This document shows, piece by piece, positions 9,735 through 18,769 of a DNA stretch of 37,609 nt. How positions within the stretch are numbered: the first letter of the stretch is position 1; each line of letters opens with the position of its first letter. The notes under the pieces are model-generated. The model saw only the letters and a program-made list of their open reading frames with translations. It had not been told where the DNA came from and searched no databases. The translations under genes and the position numbers were made by a program. Origin of the DNA: Actinomycetota bacterium (GTDB lineage: Bacteria > Actinomycetota > Actinomycetes > Actinomycetales > Kineosporiaceae); contig JAUPKJ010000083.1 of assembly GCA_030837505.1 (NCBI GenBank), positions 1 to 37,609 of the forward strand, in the 5' to 3' direction.

Positions 9735-10952
9735 TCAGCCGACGCTGGCCTGCAGACGTTCGTCGAGGACCGCCAGGAACTGCTCGGTGGTCAGCCAGGG
9801 CTGCTCGGGCCCGACGAGCAGCGCGAGGTCCTTGGTCATCTGCCCGGCCTCGACCGCCTGCACGCAGACCCGTTCCAGGGTGCGGGCGAAGGCCGTGACC
9901 TCCGGGGTGCCGTCGAGTTTGCCGCGGTGCTTGAGCCCGCCCGTCCAGGCGTAGATCGAGGCGATGGGGTTGGTCGAGGTCGGTTTGCCCTGCTGGTGCA
10001 GGCGGTAGTGCCGGGTCACGGTCCCGTGGGCCGCCTCGGCCTCGACCGTGCGCCCGTCGGGGGTCATGAGCACGCTCGTCATGAGCCCCAGGGAGCCGAA
10101 CCCCTGCGCGACGATGTCGGACTGGACGTCGCCGTCGTAGTTCTTGCAGGCCCAGACGTAGCCGCCCTCCCATTTGAGGGCCGCCGCCACCATGTCGTCG
10201 ATGAGCCGGTGCTCGTAGGTGAGCCCGACGGCCTCGAAGTCGGCCCGGAAGTCCTTTTCGTACACCTCGGCGAAAATGTCCTTGAACAGACCGTCGTAGG
10301 ACTTGAGGATCGTGTTCTTGGTCGAGAGGTAGACCGGGTAGCCGCGCTGCAGCCCGTACGAGAGGGCGGCCCGGGCGAAATCCTCGATCGACTTCGTGAA
10401 GTTGTACATGCCCAGGACGACGCCCCCGCCCTCTGGCATTTTCACGATCTCGACCTGGACGGGCTGCGAGCCGTCGTCCGGGGTGTAGGTCAGGGTGATC
10501 GTGCCGGGGCCAGGGATCTTCAGGTCGGTGGCCTTGTACTGGTCGCCGTGGGCGTGACGGCCGATGACGATGGGCTTGGTCCAGCCGGGGACCAGCCGGG
10601 GGATGTTGCTGATGATGATCGGTTCACGGAAGACGACGCCGCCCAGGATGTTGCGAATGGTCCCGTTCGGGGAACGCCACAGGTGTTTGAGCCCGAACTC
10701 CTCCACCCTGGCCTCGTCCGGGGTGATGGTCGCGCACTTGACCCCGACCCCGTGCTCCTTGATGGCCAGCGCGGACTCGACGGTGATCTGGTCGTCGGTG
10801 GCGTCCCGCTTCGCGATCGACAGATCGAAGTAGCGCAGGTCGATGTCCAGGTAGGGGTGGATCAGGCGGTCCTTGATGAACTGCCAGATGATCCGGGTCA
10901 TCTCGTCGCCGTCGAGCTCGACGACCGGTCCGGCAACTTTGATCTTGGCCAC
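9735..10952 (-). CDS. icd: NADP-dependent isocitrate dehydrogenase
   Basis: Oxidative decarboxylation of isocitrate to 2-oxoglutarate with NADPH formation. At 405 residues it is of the homodimeric type shared with eukaryotes. Family elements are [12 protein letters not shown] near the N-terminus, [12 protein letters not shown] at 94-105 (substrate Ser and Asn), [17 protein letters not shown], the metal Asp region [22 protein letters not shown] and [11 protein letters not shown] for NADP. The start is GTG at 10952 with AGGGAGA upstream; further upstream in-frame starts extend into unrelated sequence. A TATCTT box (10986-10981) gives a plausible own promoter. It lies directly downstream of the PknG module's FHA gene on the same strand. 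Confidence 0.96.
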
Positions 10953-11003
10953 GGCTCTCCCTCTCGATTCGCTCGACGTCAAGATACCTGTTCGTGGACA
11001 CGC

Positions 11004-11039
11004 CGACTCCCCCACGACTCCCGACTCCCCCACAACTCC
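11004..11039. repeat. 18-bp tandem duplication between the FHA gene and icd
   Basis: cgactcccccacgactcc (11004-11021) is repeated at 11022-11039 with one mismatch. It sits downstream of the FHA stop and upstream of the icd -10 box. Confidence 0.8.
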
Positions 11040-11090: not shown

Positions 11091-12416
11091 TCAGCCCGCG
11101 GCGGGGCGCAGCGCGATCCTGGTCCAGGCCCCGAGGTAGATGTGGTCGTTCTCCGTGAGTTCGACCCGTTCCCCGGGGGCCAGCGGGTCGAGGGGCAACG
11201 GCTCGTCGGGCGAACCGACATAGGTCCCGTTGGCGGATTCGAGGTCCTCCACCCACCATCGTTGTCCGTCGTCGGTGGAAAGTCGCGCATGACGCCGGGA
11301 GACGCCGGTGTCGGAGCCGCATTCCAGGGTCGGATGGATGTTCCGGCTCAAGGAGCGGCGTCCGATCAGGGCGATTTTCCCCGTCAGGGGGACCAGGTCG
11401 GGCCCGCCGGGGTCGGGCGGGCAGGGGTCGTCGGCCTCCTGGTCGGCGTACCACTCCGGGTCCACCCAGATCTCGGCCACCCAGCGGGCAGTGTTCCCCG
11501 AGTGCCCCGACCTTTCCGGGTCGCCGGGCGGGCCGGAGGACTCCGGGGGAACCTGCGAACCAAAGTGCTCAGGGGCCGCAGGATCGGGAAAACCGAGGTT
11601 GGCCAGGGCCTTCGGCAGGCTGGTCACGCGGGGGGCCGGGGCCGGCACCCCGGCAGGGGCCGAGGGAAGAGCGGAGGGGGGAGGCGGCAGGGTCCGCGGC
11701 AGGGTCGGCGGCGGGACCGGTGGCATGGGCACAGACTCCGCCCCCGGCCCCACGGGGACATTGGGACCGACCCGGGTCACGTCCGGGGGGATCGATCCGA
11801 AGGTGCCCGAGGGCTTCTCCTGGCGGGAACGGAGCAACGAGCCGGCCGGGTCGAACGCCCCGGGGCGGTTCGTCGGTCCGACGGCGAGATCCGGTCCAGC
11901 AGGGCCCGACGGCGCGGGACGAAGCCCGGAAACGGGCTGAGCCGCAGGCGGCAGCGGCCCGACCGGGGCGGGACCCACCCGGGTGACATGGTCCAGGGGG
12001 GAGGCGGGCGACGCGGCCTGCGGGGCGGGGACGGCCTTCGCCGGCTCGTCCTCGGAGTCGAGAATCGGCATCGCCGCGGTCTGTTGCAGGAGAGCCGAGG
12101 CCAGCGACGGTCTCTTCGACTCCGGTGGAGAAGCCGACGGCTCCCGGGAGCCCATCTGCCGGGTCCGGTAGTCGTAGCCACAGCTCCGGCAGATCATTCC
12201 GCCGAGTCCTCTGGCCTCACCGCAGTGCGGACAGTTCTTGGGGACCTCGGGTACCACGGCTCTGCCCTGCTGCGGGCCGTCGGGGCGCCCTCCGGCCGGC
12301 GTCGACGGGCGGGCGGGGGAAGCGGCGCCGGGACGGCCCGGAGCCGGGGCACCGCAGGTGTCGCACCGGTCGTCGGAGGCAGAGTGGTGTCCTTGGGGGC
12401 AGATGAAGGGAGTCAC
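11091..12416 (-). CDS. Double zinc-ribbon FHA-domain protein of the PknG module
   Basis: 441 residues. Two N-terminal zinc-ribbon-like knuckles come first: Cys6 with His10/His11 and Cys18/Cys21, then Cys62/Cys65 and Cys76/Cys79. A Pro/Ala-rich disordered region spans about 85-310. A C-terminal FHA domain (about 340-437) shows IGRRS (351-355), SRRH (373-376) and ANGT (395-398), the residues that bind phosphothreonine. The motif VTRVGP occurs twice in the disordered part (Thr145, Thr214). By analogy with GarA/OdhI it may be phosphorylated by PknG and switched by self-binding, but this is inference. The start is GTG at 12416. It overlaps the stop of an upstream 18-codon ORF by GTGA. It is last in the module, before icd. 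Confidence 0.88.
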   Translation of the reverse strand: MTPFICPQGHHSASDDRCDTCGAPAPGRPGAASPARPSTPAGGRPDGPQQGRAVVPEVPKNCPHCGEARGLGGMICRSCGYDYRTRQMGSREPSASPPESKRPSLASALLQQTAAMPILDSEDEPAKAVPAPQAASPASPLDHVTRVGPAPVGPLPPAAQPVSGLRPAPSGPAGPDLAVGPTNRPGAFDPAGSLLRSRQEKPSGTFGSIPPDVTRVGPNVPVGPGAESVPMPPVPPPTLPRTLPPPPSALPSAPAGVPAPAPRVTSLPKALANLGFPDPAAPEHFGSQVPPESSGPPGDPERSGHSGNTARWVAEIWVDPEWYADQEADDPCPPDPGGPDLVPLTGKIALIGRRSLSRNIHPTLECGSDTGVSRRHARLSTDDGQRWWVEDLESANGTYVGSPDEPLPLDPLAPGERVELTENDHIYLGAWTRIALRPAAG

Positions 12417-12469
12417 CGGCGTCCCCGGAGCATCTGGGAGGAACTGAGGTCTGTTGCTGCGTCCTGCAC
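12413..12469 (-). CDS. Probable leaderless 18-residue ORF coupled to the FHA gene
   Basis: GTG at 12469 opens 18 codons (VQDAATDLSSSQMLRGRR) ending in TGA 12415-12413. The stop overlaps the FHA start codon as GTGA. A TAAGGT box at 12482-12477 lies 7 nt before the GTG, the spacing expected of a leaderless transcript. The 161-nt gap after the PP2C stop therefore seems to hold an internal promoter driving a small coupled ORF plus the FHA gene. The peptide matches no family I know. Its role may be translational coupling rather than a product. Confidence 0.45.
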   Translation of the reverse strand: MQDAATDLSSSQMLRGRR

Positions 12470-12476
12470 GGTGACA

Positions 12477-12482
12477 ACCTTA
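12477..12482 (-). promoter_or_regulatory. -10 element of an internal promoter before the FHA gene
   Basis: TAAGGT on the minus strand, 7 nt from the GTG of the 18-codon ORF. It fits the TAnnnT-plus-7 pattern seen at other leaderless starts in this window. No clear -35. Confidence 0.5.
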
Positions 12483-12577
12483 CGCAACCGGTCCCCCTTC
12501 CCGCCCGGCCCGGTCACAGGGGGCGACCGGACGCGACCCGGTGCGGTGGCTCTCCGGGACGTCCCGTCACCCTCCGG

Positions 12578-14209
12578 TCAGGCCCTCGCCAAGGTGACCG
12601 TGATGTTGTCGTGTCCGCCGCTCTTCACGGCCCATTCGACCATCCCCGAGGCAATGACCTCGGGGTCCCCGGCGGCTGCCGACTCGGCCTGCCGCAGGAC
12701 CTCCGCGATCCGCTGGGGATGCGAGGCGTAGTTCCACAGACCGTCGGAACAGACCAGGACCCACCCGGGTCCCGGCAGCTCGACAAGGGCCGTGCGCAGC
12801 ATCGGATCCGGGCTGTCCCGCCCCAACCAGCGGGTTATGGCATGAGCCCACGGGGACCGCTCCGCGTCCTCCAGGGAGGCCCCCAAGGCCACCTGTTCCC
12901 AGATCCAGGAGTCGTCGGCGCTCAGCTGCACGGGCTCGTCGTCGTCCGGGACCCAGTAGATCCTGCTGTCGCCGATCCACCCGATGACCAGGGTCCGGAA
13001 CCTCAGGAGAGCCGCGACCATGGTGCAGGAGGGCGGGTTGACCCCCGGGGGGGTACCGACGGTCAGGGCCGCCCCGGCCGCTGCGTTCTGGGCGGCCCGG
13101 CCGGCCTGTGTCATCCGGTCGAGGAGGATCTCGTCCTCCTCGTTCTCCAGCTGCCCCCCGGCCTCGAGGGGCTGGCCGGCGCGGGCCTCCATCTCGTCGG
13201 GCAGGGGCAGGACGAGGACCTCCCGCGCGGCCCTGGCAGCGGCCAGGCTGGCGACGTCGGAGCCCGCGGCCGACGAGACTCCGTCGCTCACGACGAGAAC
13301 CCCCCACCGTCCCGCCTCCTCGGTGGCAGCAACGGCCATGGCGTCCTCGTTGTGGCTGTGGCGCAGCCCACGGTCACTGACGCCGGCAACCCACGAGGAG
13401 GGACGTTCCTCCCAATGGTCCCGGGGCGGGGACGCCGGGGCCCCGCAGAGCGCACACGTGCCCTCCGGCGAGATGGCCCCGGAGCACTTCCCACAGGTGT
13501 CCGACAGCCCGTCGAGGGTGATGTCCCTCCACAACGGGGCCGGGGTCGACGGTTTCTCGCCCGGTTTCTCGCCCGACGGTTTCCGGTGTGTTCGGTCCCC
13601 GGTCGATCCGGGATCCGGGTTCCCCGCTGCGCGTTCCCCCGAACCGACGCTGTCGGGAGTCGCGCTGCCCGAAGTCGTGTCCTCCACGTCGCTGTTCATC
13701 GGGTCGTCGCTCTCCGGGCCGGGCTCGCTCTCCGGGACGGGCTCTGGGGCGGGGGCGGTTTCCGTGGAGGTCTCCGGGGCGGGGGCGGGCTCCGGGAGGG
13801 CTTCCGGGACCGGCTCTGGGAGCGGTTCGGGAGTCGGCCGGGGGCCGGCTTCCCCGCTCGATTCCCCGCTCGGGTCCCGGTTCGGTGCCCCGTCCGGCTC
13901 CCGGTTCTGCTCCGGAACCGGCTCGGGGGGTGGGGTCGCTGCGGGGGAAGCGGCTCGGTCGGGATCCGGGGTACGGGGGGGAACGACCGGCGGCGGCGCA
14001 GGCTCGGACGCAGGACGGTCGGCGGCAGGACGGTCGGCGGCAGGACGGTCGGACGCGGCGAGGGGGGTTCCGCAGCCCTCGCAGAAGACGTCGCCGTCCC
14101 CGGGCGGTTCCTCGCAGGCCGGGCAGGCCGGGCAGGGCACCGTCCCCCGGTCGGCAGCGGTCCGAGCGGGCGGGACCGACCCCGCGGGGCCGTTCACAGA
14201 GCGGTCCAT
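12578..14209 (-). CDS. Zinc-ribbon PP2C-family protein phosphatase of the PknG module
   Basis: 543 residues. An N-terminal zinc ribbon has Cys26/Cys29/Cys32 and Cys43/Cys46 (FCEGCG). A long Pro/Glu-rich linker (50-225) follows, then a second ribbon with Cys239/Cys242 and Cys252/Cys255. The Mn/Mg-dependent PP2C domain (273-543) shows RHSHNEDA (283-290), the metal Asp309 in VVSDGVSS, CSDGLW with Asp489 and GGHDNIT with Asp534. It probably removes phosphates placed by PknG, whose gene is directly upstream. The ATG at 14209 lies 15 nt inside the pknG end. A GTG at 14197 would overlap the pknG stop as GTGA and is an equally likely start. Neither has a strong ribosome site. Confidence 0.9.
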   Translation of the reverse strand: MDRSVNGPAGSVPPARTAADRGTVPCPACPACEEPPGDGDVFCEGCGTPLAASDRPAADRPAADRPASEPAPPPVVPPRTPDPDRAASPAATPPPEPVPEQNREPDGAPNRDPSGESSGEAGPRPTPEPLPEPVPEALPEPAPAPETSTETAPAPEPVPESEPGPESDDPMNSDVEDTTSGSATPDSVGSGERAAGNPDPGSTGDRTHRKPSGEKPGEKPSTPAPLWRDITLDGLSDTCGKCSGAISPEGTCALCGAPASPPRDHWEERPSSWVAGVSDRGLRHSHNEDAMAVAATEEAGRWGVLVVSDGVSSAAGSDVASLAAARAAREVLVLPLPDEMEARAGQPLEAGGQLENEEDEILLDRMTQAGRAAQNAAAGAALTVGTPPGVNPPSCTMVAALLRFRTLVIGWIGDSRIYWVPDDDEPVQLSADDSWIWEQVALGASLEDAERSPWAHAITRWLGRDSPDPMLRTALVELPGPGWVLVCSDGLWNYASHPQRIAEVLRQAESAAAGDPEVIASGMVEWAVKSGGHDNITVTLARA

Positions 14210-16380
14210 CGACGCAGCGAATTGGCCAGGTCCACGAGACGGATCCTCTCGGCGGGGTCCTCGGTCAGCAGGGCCAGGTCACGGTAGGCGACTTCGACGC
14301 CGTCCCGCAGGGTACGCTCGACCGCGGGGATCCCGGCCAGGCCGATGTCCGGCCGGGGGCCGTCGTCCAGGACCCTGCGGAGCGCTGCGTGCAGGGCCTG
14401 CGCCCGAACTCGCGCCTTTTCCTGCGGTTCCACGGTCACCGACCCTATGCTCTCCAGCGCCTCGGCGATTGCGGCGAGGCCGGGATCGGCGTCCAGGATC
14501 AGGCGGGCGCGCAGCCTCCGGGCGTCCACGAACGACCTGCTGGTGGGGGGCACCCCGTCGAGGGCTGCGAGCGCGGCGCCCAGGTCTTTCCTCTCGGCTC
14601 TGATCCGGGCCAGCCCGAAGGCTGCCGGGGCCCGGTAGTCGGCGTCGGTCCGCGCGCACACCTCGTACATGGCCTCTGCGATCCGGGGTTCCCCGCTGAG
14701 TTCGCAGGCCAGTCCGAGGGCCAGTTTGGGGGCCAGTTCACCGGGGACCTGGCCGTAGACGGCGTTGAAGGAGGCCCGCGCTGACAGGGGGTCGTCCTTG
14801 GCCAGTTCCGACAGGCCGGACAGCCACACGGCGCGCCATTCCCAGGGGTCGTGGGCGATGATCCGGGCGACGGTGTCCTCGGCCTCCTCGAACAGGCCGG
14901 CGTCGAGGGCTGCCCGCGCGAGGGCGAGGAGGACCTCGGGGGTGTCCTGGGGCGCTGCTCGCAGGACGGCGGAGCGGACGGCCGGGTCGGTGACGGACAG
15001 GGAGGACAGCCAGCCGGCCAGGGGGTCGGCCGGGTCGGCCCGCGGGGCGGGCAGGTGGGTCCAGTTCAGGTCCTCGCTGACGACGTCGGGGGGCTCGAAC
15101 AGCACGGAGGGGACCGAGTGGCGTGCGATCTCCTGTTCTGGTCGCAGGTCGCTGACGATCTCCCGCAGGACTCCCAGAAGTTGGACGCGCAGTTCGTCGG
15201 CGGATTGGAACCGATCGGCCGGATCGGGGGCGCAGGCCTTGAGCAGGAGTCTGTGCAGGGAGTCGTGTCGTTCGAACAGTGGGGTCTCGCCGACCGGGGG
15301 CAGGTCGGTGGCGTAGCGGGTCTGGACGTCGGGGAAGTCCGTCGCCAGGACCGCGAGGGTTCGTCCGGCGGTGTACAGGTCGGAGGGGATCGACGTGCCT
15401 TGTCGCCCGACCTCCGGGGCCTGGTACCCGACCGTGCCGTAGACCGGGGACCGGTGGTCCTCCATCCGCCTCACGCCCCCCAGGTCGATCAGTTTGACGG
15501 AGTCCCCGCTCTGGATCATGTTGTCGGGTTTGAGGTCGCAGTACAGCAGTCCGGCGTCGTGCAGGTACTGCAGGGCGGGGAGGATCTCCACGAGGTAGGC
15601 GATGGCCTGGTCGACGGGGATCGGGTCGGGGTCGCCGCCGTGGGCACTTCTCCTGCTGCGCAGCAGGTTCTTCAGCGAGGACCCCCCGACGTACTCCATG
15701 ACGATGTAGCCGGCCCCGTCGTGACGCACGAAGTTGTAGATCTCGACGATGAGCGGGTGCGAGACCTCTGCGAGGAACTTGCGTTCGGCGACGGCGGCGG
15801 AGTATGCCTCCTCGTCCGCGGAGTTCAGCAGACCTTTGAGGACCACCCAACGGTCGGAGACGTTGTGGTCCTTCGCAAGGTAGATCCAGCCGACTCCTCC
15901 GTGGGACAGCGGGCCGACCACCTCGTACTGCCCCGCCACGAGGGTTCCGGGGACGAGTTTGGGGGTGAAGGAGAACGGGGTGCGGCACTGCGGGCAGAAG
16001 CCCTCGGTCCGGCCGGGGCGTGAGTTGCGGGCACGGCCGACGGGCGCGCCGCACGAGGAGCAGTGGCGGCGGTCCTCGGGGACCTCGAGGTTCACAGGAA
16101 GGGCCCTGCGCGGATCGGGCACGGGGACGGTGGGGACGCTGGTCAGGCCGGCTCCCAGGCGGACCCCTCGCAGCCTCGTGGAGGCGCTGCCGGGACGACG
16201 GACGGTACCGCCGGCGCGGGCCGAACCGAGGGGTTTGGAGGGGATGCTCCCGGAGGAGGCCGTGCCGTCCGGCCCGACGTCGACGGGCCTGGTGGGGACG
16301 GGGGTGGTGGGGACAGGCGCGGTGGGGACGGGCCTGTCGGGTAAAGGCGTGGTGGGGACGGGGGGGGTGGGTTCAGTCAT
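14194..16380 (-). CDS. pknG: PknG-type serine/threonine protein kinase with rubredoxin-like and TPR domains
   Basis: A soluble 728-residue kinase. The N-terminus carries PVPT repeats (residues 7-31). A rubredoxin-like metal site follows (CSSCG 107-111, CPQC 129-132). The kinase domain (about 150-410) has Lys182 (VVLKGL), the catalytic YCDLKPDN with Asp282, DLG in place of DFG at 299-301 and APE at 321-323. A TPR-containing C-terminal domain extends to 728. This order and the CDLKP/DLG variants are hallmarks of PknG, which controls glutamate and 2-oxoglutarate metabolism through FHA proteins in mycobacteria and corynebacteria. The ATG has AGGA upstream, 104 nt after glnH. Its stop overlaps the phosphatase gene. 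Confidence 0.96.
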   Translation of the reverse strand: MTEPTPPVPTTPLPDRPVPTAPVPTTPVPTRPVDVGPDGTASSGSIPSKPLGSARAGGTVRRPGSASTRLRGVRLGAGLTSVPTVPVPDPRRALPVNLEVPEDRRHCSSCGAPVGRARNSRPGRTEGFCPQCRTPFSFTPKLVPGTLVAGQYEVVGPLSHGGVGWIYLAKDHNVSDRWVVLKGLLNSADEEAYSAAVAERKFLAEVSHPLIVEIYNFVRHDGAGYIVMEYVGGSSLKNLLRSRRSAHGGDPDPIPVDQAIAYLVEILPALQYLHDAGLLYCDLKPDNMIQSGDSVKLIDLGGVRRMEDHRSPVYGTVGYQAPEVGRQGTSIPSDLYTAGRTLAVLATDFPDVQTRYATDLPPVGETPLFERHDSLHRLLLKACAPDPADRFQSADELRVQLLGVLREIVSDLRPEQEIARHSVPSVLFEPPDVVSEDLNWTHLPAPRADPADPLAGWLSSLSVTDPAVRSAVLRAAPQDTPEVLLALARAALDAGLFEEAEDTVARIIAHDPWEWRAVWLSGLSELAKDDPLSARASFNAVYGQVPGELAPKLALGLACELSGEPRIAEAMYEVCARTDADYRAPAAFGLARIRAERKDLGAALAALDGVPPTSRSFVDARRLRARLILDADPGLAAIAEALESIGSVTVEPQEKARVRAQALHAALRRVLDDGPRPDIGLAGIPAVERTLRDGVEVAYRDLALLTEDPAERIRLVDLANSLRRWTAL

Positions 16381-16484
16381 GTCCTGGCTCCTGCCGTGGG
16401 ACGCCGTCCGGCCGGTCCGGGTCCGTGCGCAGCCGGCTGTGGGCCGGGTCGTCCGTGGGTCCCCTGGTGTTCGAGGCTTTCACG

Positions 16485-17525
16485 TCATCGTCCGTACAGC
16501 GGTTGAGGCGGGGTCGGGGTCCCCGTGGTCCCGCCCGCTCCGGCGGTGTTCAGCCGGTCGCCGATCCAACGCCGGTAGGAGGCCTTCCAGGTACCGTCCT
16601 CGCGCACCTGTTCGAGGACGGCGTTGACGAAGCCGACGAGGTCCTTCTGCTTGGCGGACATCCCGAGGGCGTAAGGTTCTTCGGTCATCTTCGGACCGAT
16701 CACGACGGCGTGGGGGTCCTGGGCCACGAACCCGGCGAGCACGGTGTCGTCGCTGGTCACTCCGTCGACCTTGCCCTGCTGGAAGAGCGCGAGGCAATCG
16801 CTCAGATGAGCCACTTGCACGACTTCGATCCGGGGATGGGCGCCCAGGGTCTTCAGGCTCGTGGAGGTCCGGGTCACGCACACCTTCTGTCCTGCCATCT
16901 GTGACAGGTTCTTCACGGTCGAGCCCTTGGCCACGAGGACCCGCTGTCCGGCCTCGAAGTACACCGAGGAGAAACTGATCTGTCTCCAGCGTTCGCAGGT
17001 CGCCGTGAGGGTGGCTGCGACGATGTCGACCTCGCCGGACTTCAGCACCGGGATCCTCTCGTCCGAGGGGAGCACCCGGTACTGGATCGCCCGACCGTCG
17101 CCGAAGATCGCTCGGGAGACGGCCTTGAGCAGGTCGACGTCGAACCCCTCGATCTGCCCGCTGATCGGGTTGCGGTAGCCGAAGAGCAGGGTGTCGGCCG
17201 AGACGCCGGCCACGAGCCGTCCCCGGCGCTGGATCTGTTCCATGGTGCTGCCCCGGGGCATCTTCCCGGGGGCCGGCAGGGCCCCGGGGCCGGGGGCGTA
17301 GGAGGCCCTCGGAGAGCCGCAGCGGGTGTCGAGGGTGGGCTGCGCCGTGGTCGAGGTCGGTTCCGGAGCCGTCCCGGACGAGGGGGCCGGTCGGGCGGTG
17401 GACTGTTGTCCTGTCCCGGTGGTCTGCCGGGGAGCGCTCTCGCAGCCGGTCAGACCGCCGGACAGCAGCACGGCTCCGGCGACGGACGTCACCAGGGCTG
17501 CCCGCAGGGGGAAGAACTGTCTCAT
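16485..17525 (-). CDS. glnH: GlnH-like amino-acid-binding lipoprotein of the PknG module
   Basis: 346 residues. The signal peptide ends in the lipobox LTGC with Cys28 as lipidation site. A solute-binding family 3 domain runs from about 80 to 330: PRGSTMEQIQRRGRLVAGV, GFDVDLLKAV, LPSDERIPVLKSGEVDIVAATLT and GVTSDDTVLAGF. In mycobacteria GlnH binds Asp, Glu or related acids outside the cell and signals through GlnX to PknG. No ABC permease or ATPase lies nearby, which supports a sensing rather than transport role. The ATG at 17525 overlaps the stop of the upstream membrane gene (ATGA) and has GGAGGAG upstream. An in-frame ATG at 17558 lacks the right spacing to the signal peptide. Confidence 0.92.
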   Translation of the reverse strand: MRQFFPLRAALVTSVAGAVLLSGGLTGCESAPRQTTGTGQQSTARPAPSSGTAPEPTSTTAQPTLDTRCGSPRASYAPGPGALPAPGKMPRGSTMEQIQRRGRLVAGVSADTLLFGYRNPISGQIEGFDVDLLKAVSRAIFGDGRAIQYRVLPSDERIPVLKSGEVDIVAATLTATCERWRQISFSSVYFEAGQRVLVAKGSTVKNLSQMAGQKVCVTRTSTSLKTLGAHPRIEVVQVAHLSDCLALFQQGKVDGVTSDDTVLAGFVAQDPHAVVIGPKMTEEPYALGMSAKQKDLVGFVNAVLEQVREDGTWKASYRRWIGDRLNTAGAGGTTGTPTPPQPLYGR

Positions 17526-18769
17526 CGGTACTCCTCCCGACGCAGCGAGAACCCCCACCAGGCGAACCCACCCGCGAGGATCCCCGACAGGAGGACCCCG
17601 GCCCCCGCGAGATCCAGCCCGGATTCGGCGTCCCGGAACTGCGAGGACATCCGCGCCGACTCACCGGACAGCTCGGACCCGACGCTCTGCGAAAAACGGA
17701 GGAAGGCCGACTCGGCCCCGGTGCTCGAATCCGTGGCGGCCAGTTCGACCGCGGCGTCCCAGTCCCCGGCCCGGTCCAAGGTCCGGATGCGTTCGTGGAC
17801 GGCGAGCCACTCGGCCACAGGATCGGCGTCGGACAGTGTCCCGGCCCGGTTCGCCTCGGTCAGGGACTGCTCGATCTGATCCATCCGCTGGTCGAAACGG
17901 GATTCGTCCTCGTCCGCGCCGCCCCTGGCAATGAGGATCAGACTTTCCAGGGCCTTGGCGTCGAAACCCGCGACCCTTGCCCGCGAGAGCGCGATGGTCG
18001 CGGAATAGGAGCCCTCGTGCAGGTCGTCCAGCTTCTGCTGGGCCAGCGTCATCATGGCGGTCCCTCCCCCGAGGGCCGTGAGGACGCCCAGGGTCGCCAC
18101 CAGCATCGGCAGGTTCAGGACCCGGTGGCTGCTGCGGGCCAGACGCCACTGGAAACAGAGGAGGACCCCCAGGGCCGTCAGCCCGAACAGGAGGAACAAC
18201 CGGCTCGACCACCGGGCCTGTTCGAAGGAGTCGTCGCTGCGCCCCGTCTCGGACGCGGCCAGCGCCTCCAGCTCCGGGGCAATCCCCTTGCGCAGGTGTT
18301 CGGAGGCCTGGCGCAGGTAGGCGGACGCGACGGGGAAGCCCTGCCGGTTGTTGGCCCGGGCGGTCGCGCTCGCCTCCGTGTAGAGCGTGAGCGAGGCGTT
18401 GACCTCTGCCAGCCGTTCACGGGCCGCGGCGTCGTTCCCGCAGGCCTCCACGAGGCCTCGGGAGAGGTCTGACAGGGCAGCGTCGTGGTCCGCCCGCTGC
18501 CCGACGGGTTCGAGCCCACCGCGCAGGTAGGTGTTGGTGGAACGAGCGTCGGCCTGGAGCACCTGGGTCAGGATCTCCTGGAACCCCACGGCCTGTTCGG
18601 TCTGGTGGTGTGCTTCGGCCTGGGCCTGGGACCGGACCTGGAAGGAGAGGAACCCGGCCCCGCCGAAGAACAGAGCCGTCACCGCACAGAGCACGGCGCC
18701 GGTGCGCAGCCGCCCCGGGGTGCTGGACAAGTACGTCCGCATCCACGAAGCGGTGGACGCTCGTCTCAA
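17522..18769 (-). CDS. glnX: GlnX-like four-helix membrane protein of the PknG module
   Basis: 415 residues from TTG 18769. Predicted helices lie at about 22-43, 187-210, 217-243 and 383-408. They frame two extracytoplasmic, mostly helical domains (44-186 and 244-382), rich in Ala, Glu and Arg like sensor domains of chemoreceptors. In mycobacteria GlnX is the membrane link between extracellular GlnH and cytoplasmic PknG. The TTG has GAGGGG seven nt upstream. An in-frame ATG at 18742 has no ribosome site. It is first in the module and ends in an ATGA overlap with glnH. Assignment is by topology and context, since the sequence of this family is poorly conserved. Confidence 0.85.
   Translation of the reverse strand: MRRASTASWMRTYLSSTPGRLRTGAVLCAVTALFFGGAGFLSFQVRSQAQAEAHHQTEQAVGFQEILTQVLQADARSTNTYLRGGLEPVGQRADHDAALSDLSRGLVEACGNDAAARERLAEVNASLTLYTEASATARANNRQGFPVASAYLRQASEHLRKGIAPELEALAASETGRSDDSFEQARWSSRLFLLFGLTALGVLLCFQWRLARSSHRVLNLPMLVATLGVLTALGGGTAMMTLAQQKLDDLHEGSYSATIALSRARVAGFDAKALESLILIARGGADEDESRFDQRMDQIEQSLTEANRAGTLSDADPVAEWLAVHERIRTLDRAGDWDAAVELAATDSSTGAESAFLRFSQSVGSELSGESARMSSQFRDAESGLDLAGAGVLLSGILAGGFAWWGFSLRREEYR

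Follow-up and report, generated by a model that had tools for sequence, protein, structure and literature searches.

A PknG signalling locus in the Kineosporiaceae that appears to be a reduced form of a widespread seven-gene actinobacterial cluster

In Corynebacterium and Mycobacterium the 2-oxoglutarate node is under the control of the protein kinase PknG, which has also been linked to the virulence of Mycobacterium tuberculosis. In both genera it acts within a GlnX-GlnH-PknG-OdhI pathway (PMC6069109; PMC9769921; PMC8546545), and N-terminal phosphothreonines of the mycobacterial and corynebacterial kinases recruit an FHA substrate (PMC8546545). The open-access literature on PknG describes a three-gene operon, and published work on the kinase rests on lineages that possess this operon only, whereas most of the PknG-bearing families examined here add a phosphatase, a reader, a VWA protein, and a helical protein. 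The closest described neighbourhood of kinase, PP2C, and vWA genes concerns other systems (PMC7159879). This article describes a PknG locus from a member of the Kineosporiaceae, its relationship to the gene clusters of other Actinomycetota, and the pathway that it may encode. The window, that is, the whole stretch of DNA that was analysed, comprises 37,609 nucleotides of contig JAUPKJ010000083.1 and belongs to a draft assembly (G000) of 434 contigs with 95.7% completeness.

The initial annotation placed genes for GlnX, GlnH, PknG, a PP2C phosphatase, and an FHA protein in a row, and all five are indeed present, at the positions assigned to them, on the minus strand between 11091 and 18769. The membrane signal transducer GlnX (17522-18769, minus strand) matches NCBIfam GlnX family NF058618 at 267 bits (cut-off 250) and has hydrophobic segments near residues 23-45, 187-240, and 385-403; its listed start is a TTG, with an internal ATG a few codons downstream as the alternative. 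GlnH (16485-17525, minus strand), a lipoprotein solute-binding sensor with a Pfam SBP_bac_3 domain (3.9e-27) and the lipobox LTGC, begins at an ATG at 17525 that overlaps the GlnX stop (ATGA). Both genes adjoin pknG (14194-16380, minus strand), as in a GlnX-GlnH-PknG signalling operon. The start of the PP2C gene (12578-14209, minus strand) overlaps the end of the PknG gene by 16 nt, and the FHA gene (11091-12416, minus strand) completes the row. Only two gaps interrupt the five genes, one of about 104 nt between GlnH and PknG (16381-16484, minus strand) and one of 161 nt between PP2C and FHA, and both coincide with the positions of two extra genes, X and VWA, in relatives. Promoter and terminator scans gave no signal above chance. 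On the same strand, 57 nt downstream of the FHA gene, lies a gene for isocitrate dehydrogenase (9735-11033), which in several genomes of the same family is separated from the cluster by about 5 kb and intervening genes.

PknG of the window displays the domain order that characterizes this kinase, namely a rubredoxin site, a kinase domain, and a TPR domain, with Pfam scores of 86.1 (PF16919, PknG_rubred), 109.2 (PF00069, Pkinase), and 186.6 bits (PF16918, PknG_TPR), all over cut-off. The kinase motifs are intact, as is the rubredoxin-like site that had been recognized at the outset (C107/C110 and C129/C132), which is kept in relatives. The PknG proteins of relatives carry, in addition, an N-terminal zinc ribbon (CxQPGCxGxIxDGYCxVCG) that is not present in the window protein. 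In its place stands a threonine-rich PVPTx start coded by a 15-bp tandem repeat (16282-16371, minus strand; Tandem Repeats Finder). By analogy with the phosphothreonines of the better studied kinases, one might guess that this repeat is a docking site for the FHA substrate.

The phosphatase has a Pfam PP2C_2 domain (5.9e-16), and its structure model matches PstP 1txo (E 3.3e-15), in keeping with a PPM fold; it also carries a long low-confidence linker. Its metal-binding aspartates D289, D309, D489, and D534 are invariant. The two Cys4 ribbons ascribed to it are confirmed (C29, C32, C43, C46 and C239, C242, C252, C255), all eight cysteines being invariant among 36 homologues. The FHA protein (Pfam FHA 2.8e-11) likewise has the two ribbons expected of it, but they are not both of the Cys4 type as had been proposed: the first is a Cys3His site (C6/H10/C18/C21) and only the second is Cys4 (C62/C65/C76/C79). 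These Cys and His positions are invariant or at least 90% conserved among 32 homologues, and the phosphothreonine-binding core (GR, SxxH, NG) is intact as GRRS, VSRRH, and NGT. The ribbons of both proteins give weak matches to Pfam DZR and Zn_ribbon, and they are of a type common in bacteria that usually serves structure and docking. The FHA protein exceeds most of its family relatives in the length of its linker, in which the motif VTRVGP appears two times, at residues 144 and 213.

The surroundings of pknG were surveyed by scanning named genomes with a PknG alignment, yielding 80 loci that were picked by likeness to the window, so that the counts given here are not frequencies in the phylum. 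At 56 of the 80, all seven genes occur in the order GlnX-GlnH-X-PknG-PP2C-VWA-FHA. In six further loci, from Actinomadura and Nocardiopsis, the other five genes come first and the sensor pair follows them; in four, X through FHA are present and the sensor pair is incomplete; and two, from Amycolatopsis and Herbihabitans, consist of GlnX-GlnH-PknG only, like most genomes of family f22. The seven-gene order is present in the same family as the window and in Streptomyces, and only its core is seen in L080, a genome farther removed within the phylum. Two Acidimicrobiales loci (L190, L203) have X-PknG-PP2C-VWA-FHA without a complete GlnX-GlnH pair adjoining. The layout is thus not peculiar to this genome, and the proposal that one cluster codes for sensor, kinase, eraser, and reader holds for a deeply conserved arrangement, though its form in the window is a reduced one: PP2C and FHA genes with two ribbons each lie downstream of pknG, and VWA, X, and the N-terminal ribbon of PknG are missing. 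On this comparison of gene order, the mycobacterial three-gene operon is best read as a reduced form of the seven-gene cluster, and the window as a second, separate reduction of it. No description of the seven-gene cluster was found in the open-access literature, subscription journals lying mostly outside the search.

A trace of this reduction is found at the VWA position. In relatives the VWA protein has Pfam VWA and VWA_3_C domains, and its gene is present in 12 of 12 other genomes of the same family, whereas no full VWA gene occurs anywhere in the assembly of the window. Between PP2C and FHA there is, instead, a match to the VWA profile (LRKVVTVQDAATDLSSSQMLRGRR; 12413-12487, minus strand), which represents the VWA C-terminus in a diverged and shortened form, at the expected position and in frame. 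Its stop overlaps the FHA start (GTGA), and a VWA/FHA overlap of 4 nt is usual in most relatives. A six-frame search of the window puts this match first against the profile, at 5.2 bits with the next at 0.0. Among 3000 dinucleotide shuffles of the PP2C-FHA gap two scored as high or higher, and none of the 3000 did so within the C-terminal portion of the profile. The window lineage has lost VWA and a remnant has been left behind, while PP2C and FHA have been retained with all their ribbon and active-site residues. With the masked locus L195 set aside, the window is the only one of the 80 loci that has PP2C and FHA without VWA. Where it is present (L062-L097, L134-L213), the VWA protein ends in a conserved tail, mostly [DE]TxSTxTxR (81 of 92), that is possibly a phosphorylation site. 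A correspondence between this tail (STKTxRV) and the VTRVGP pair of the FHA linker was considered and rejected, the conserved threonine being placed elsewhere.

Gene X, which in relatives lies between GlnH and PknG, is absent from the locus and from the whole assembly, and no match to a remnant was found in the GlnH-PknG gap. Its product belongs to no Pfam or NCBIfam family. The structure model of X is all-helical and confident (pLDDT 92.6), and in a Foldseek search no solved structure matched it at E <= 0.001. Since a second structure comparison returned only middling helical-bundle matches, the best being EzrA (Z 11.4, rmsd 9.9), no function is assigned to X from structure.

The loss of the PknG ribbon and that of VWA are linked. 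Among 110 PknG loci, VWA and the N-terminal ribbon occur together in 91 and neither occurs in 10, absence of VWA having been checked genome-wide for seven of the 10 and at the locus only for G074, G085, and G288; the other nine are either affected by truncation, masking, or a contig end or are second copies with VWA elsewhere in the genome. Apparent exceptions to the ribbon rule in regular-expression searches were accounted for by contig ends, masking or truncation, a different reading frame, a spacing that the expression missed, or a second copy. Ribbon-bearing second copies of PknG without a local VWA gene occur in Nocardia and in Micrococcales Th196P3bin61 (L208, L179), and the same genomes also carry the full cluster (L219, L220). 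In the PknG tree the window, on a longish branch, falls among VWA-bearing clades, and the starred branches can be explained only by two or more independent losses, a small number.

Additional copies of PknG in other genomes bear on which parts of the cluster travel together. In Streptomyces, a second ribbon-bearing PknG adjoins a second VWA gene without PP2C or FHA; at three such loci (L090, L091, L092) the second VWA gene, paired with the second PknG-like gene, carries a C-terminal zinc ribbon. One Spirillospora copy (L193) comprises X, PknG with its ribbon, and VWA, without PP2C and FHA. It was considered as the mirror image of the loss in the window and rejected as such: a further ribbon-bearing PP2C and FHA are found elsewhere in that genome, and L193 therefore counts as a paralogous copy only. 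More generally, the Actinomadura/Spirillospora copies L193 and L204 have no PP2C (L193 also no FHA) and keep VWA and the PknG ribbon. From these patterns we infer two sub-modules, one probably consisting of X, VWA, and the PknG ribbon and the other of PP2C and FHA; VWA and X were lost together in the window, and so the ribbon could serve either. A tentative extension, to which we give somewhat less than even weight, is that PknG was at its root a two-armed kinase, with a ribbon/VWA/X arm and a PP2C/FHA arm, either of which could be dropped as a unit by lineages or copies, the mycobacterial and corynebacterial kinases having lost both.

The reading that we favour, with confidence a little better than even for its parts taken jointly, is that the window holds a secondarily reduced form of the widespread seven-gene cluster, in which one arm has been lost, a pathway of sensor, kinase, reader, and eraser persists, and the ribbons function in docking. 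In such a pathway GlnH would bind aspartate or glutamate and GlnX would relay the signal to the TPR domain of PknG, and the kinase, once activated, would phosphorylate itself near its N-terminus together with its targets, OdhI among them; these upstream steps and the downstream role of OdhI follow published work in Mycobacterium and Corynebacterium. An OdhI gene with the phospho-motif DTT ([DE]TT) is present in the assembly, away from the locus. The FHA protein is predicted to bind phosphothreonines and the PP2C to remove phosphates, resetting the targets, with the ribbons of the two as putative structural docking parts that would keep reader and eraser close to one another or to the kinase. 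Where the cluster is complete, the N-terminal ribbon of PknG may be the docking site for VWA (and X), which would form a second arm, the one dropped in the window lineage.

Other explanations of the locus deserve consideration. The PP2C and FHA proteins might be a general phosphatase and reader that share an operon with PknG and act neither on it nor on its targets. This is unlikely given that the gene order is kept across families and in a second class and that the PknG and PP2C genes overlap; moreover, the assembly contains further PP2C genes without ribbons as well as the OdhI gene, so the pair in the cluster looks dedicated. A module decaying in this lineage, with PP2C and FHA also on their way out, would account for the VWA remnant, the missing X, and the lost PknG ribbon, as well as for the long linkers, the repeats, and the longish PknG branch. 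Five open frames with catalytic, FHA-core, and ribbon residues all intact argue against it, and we regard such decay as quite unlikely. That VWA and X are real genes lost in a fragmented and incomplete draft assembly is very unlikely, as the locus falls inside a single contig, what is left of VWA is a diverged, shortened piece with no clean cut, and the PknG ribbon has gone too.

It had also been suggested that the shared cysteine knuckles indicate a redox- or metal-linked complex. In such a scheme the ribbons would form a shared sensor, and kinase, phosphatase, and reader would swap partners upon metal loss or oxidation; the invariance of the ribbon cysteines across homologues would suit it, as would the oxidation response of the PknG rubredoxin site, the only one of these sites with a published redox effect (stated in PMC6069109). 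The ribbons of PP2C and FHA, however, resemble ordinary structural zinc ribbons, one of them being Cys3His, and no neighbour gene examined indicates redox or metal handling. The suggestion thus finds no support here, and a sensor of this kind is highly improbable.

The relationship of the reduced cluster to known systems can be summarized as follows. With the GlnX-GlnH-PknG-OdhI/GarA pathway (PMC6069109; PMC9769921; PMC8546545) the window has in common the sensor pair and the TPR kinase, and its PknG has a rubredoxin as in Mycobacterium, but ribbon-bearing PP2C and FHA genes follow PknG, neither of which is part of the known GlnX-GlnH-PknG operon. In the GAP1-N2 neighbourhoods of kinase, PP2C, and standalone vWA, a kinase, often with a zinc ribbon, adjoins PP2C and vWA genes; these kinases are not described as PknG with TPR and a solute-binding sensor (PMC7159879). 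Unlike those systems, the window locus has no GTPase or GAP1 components that could be found. The TerY-P triad of vWA, PP2C, and kinase brings the same kinds of domain together in one neighbourhood and differs in its sensor part. The seven-gene cluster itself, present in Streptomyces, Kineosporia, Cellulomonas, Nocardioides, Actinoplanes, and others, has the same order, homologous proteins, and the PP2C/FHA ribbons, from which the window differs by the absence of X, VWA, and the zinc ribbon at the PknG N-terminus; as a natural deletion, it suggests which parts of the cluster belong together.
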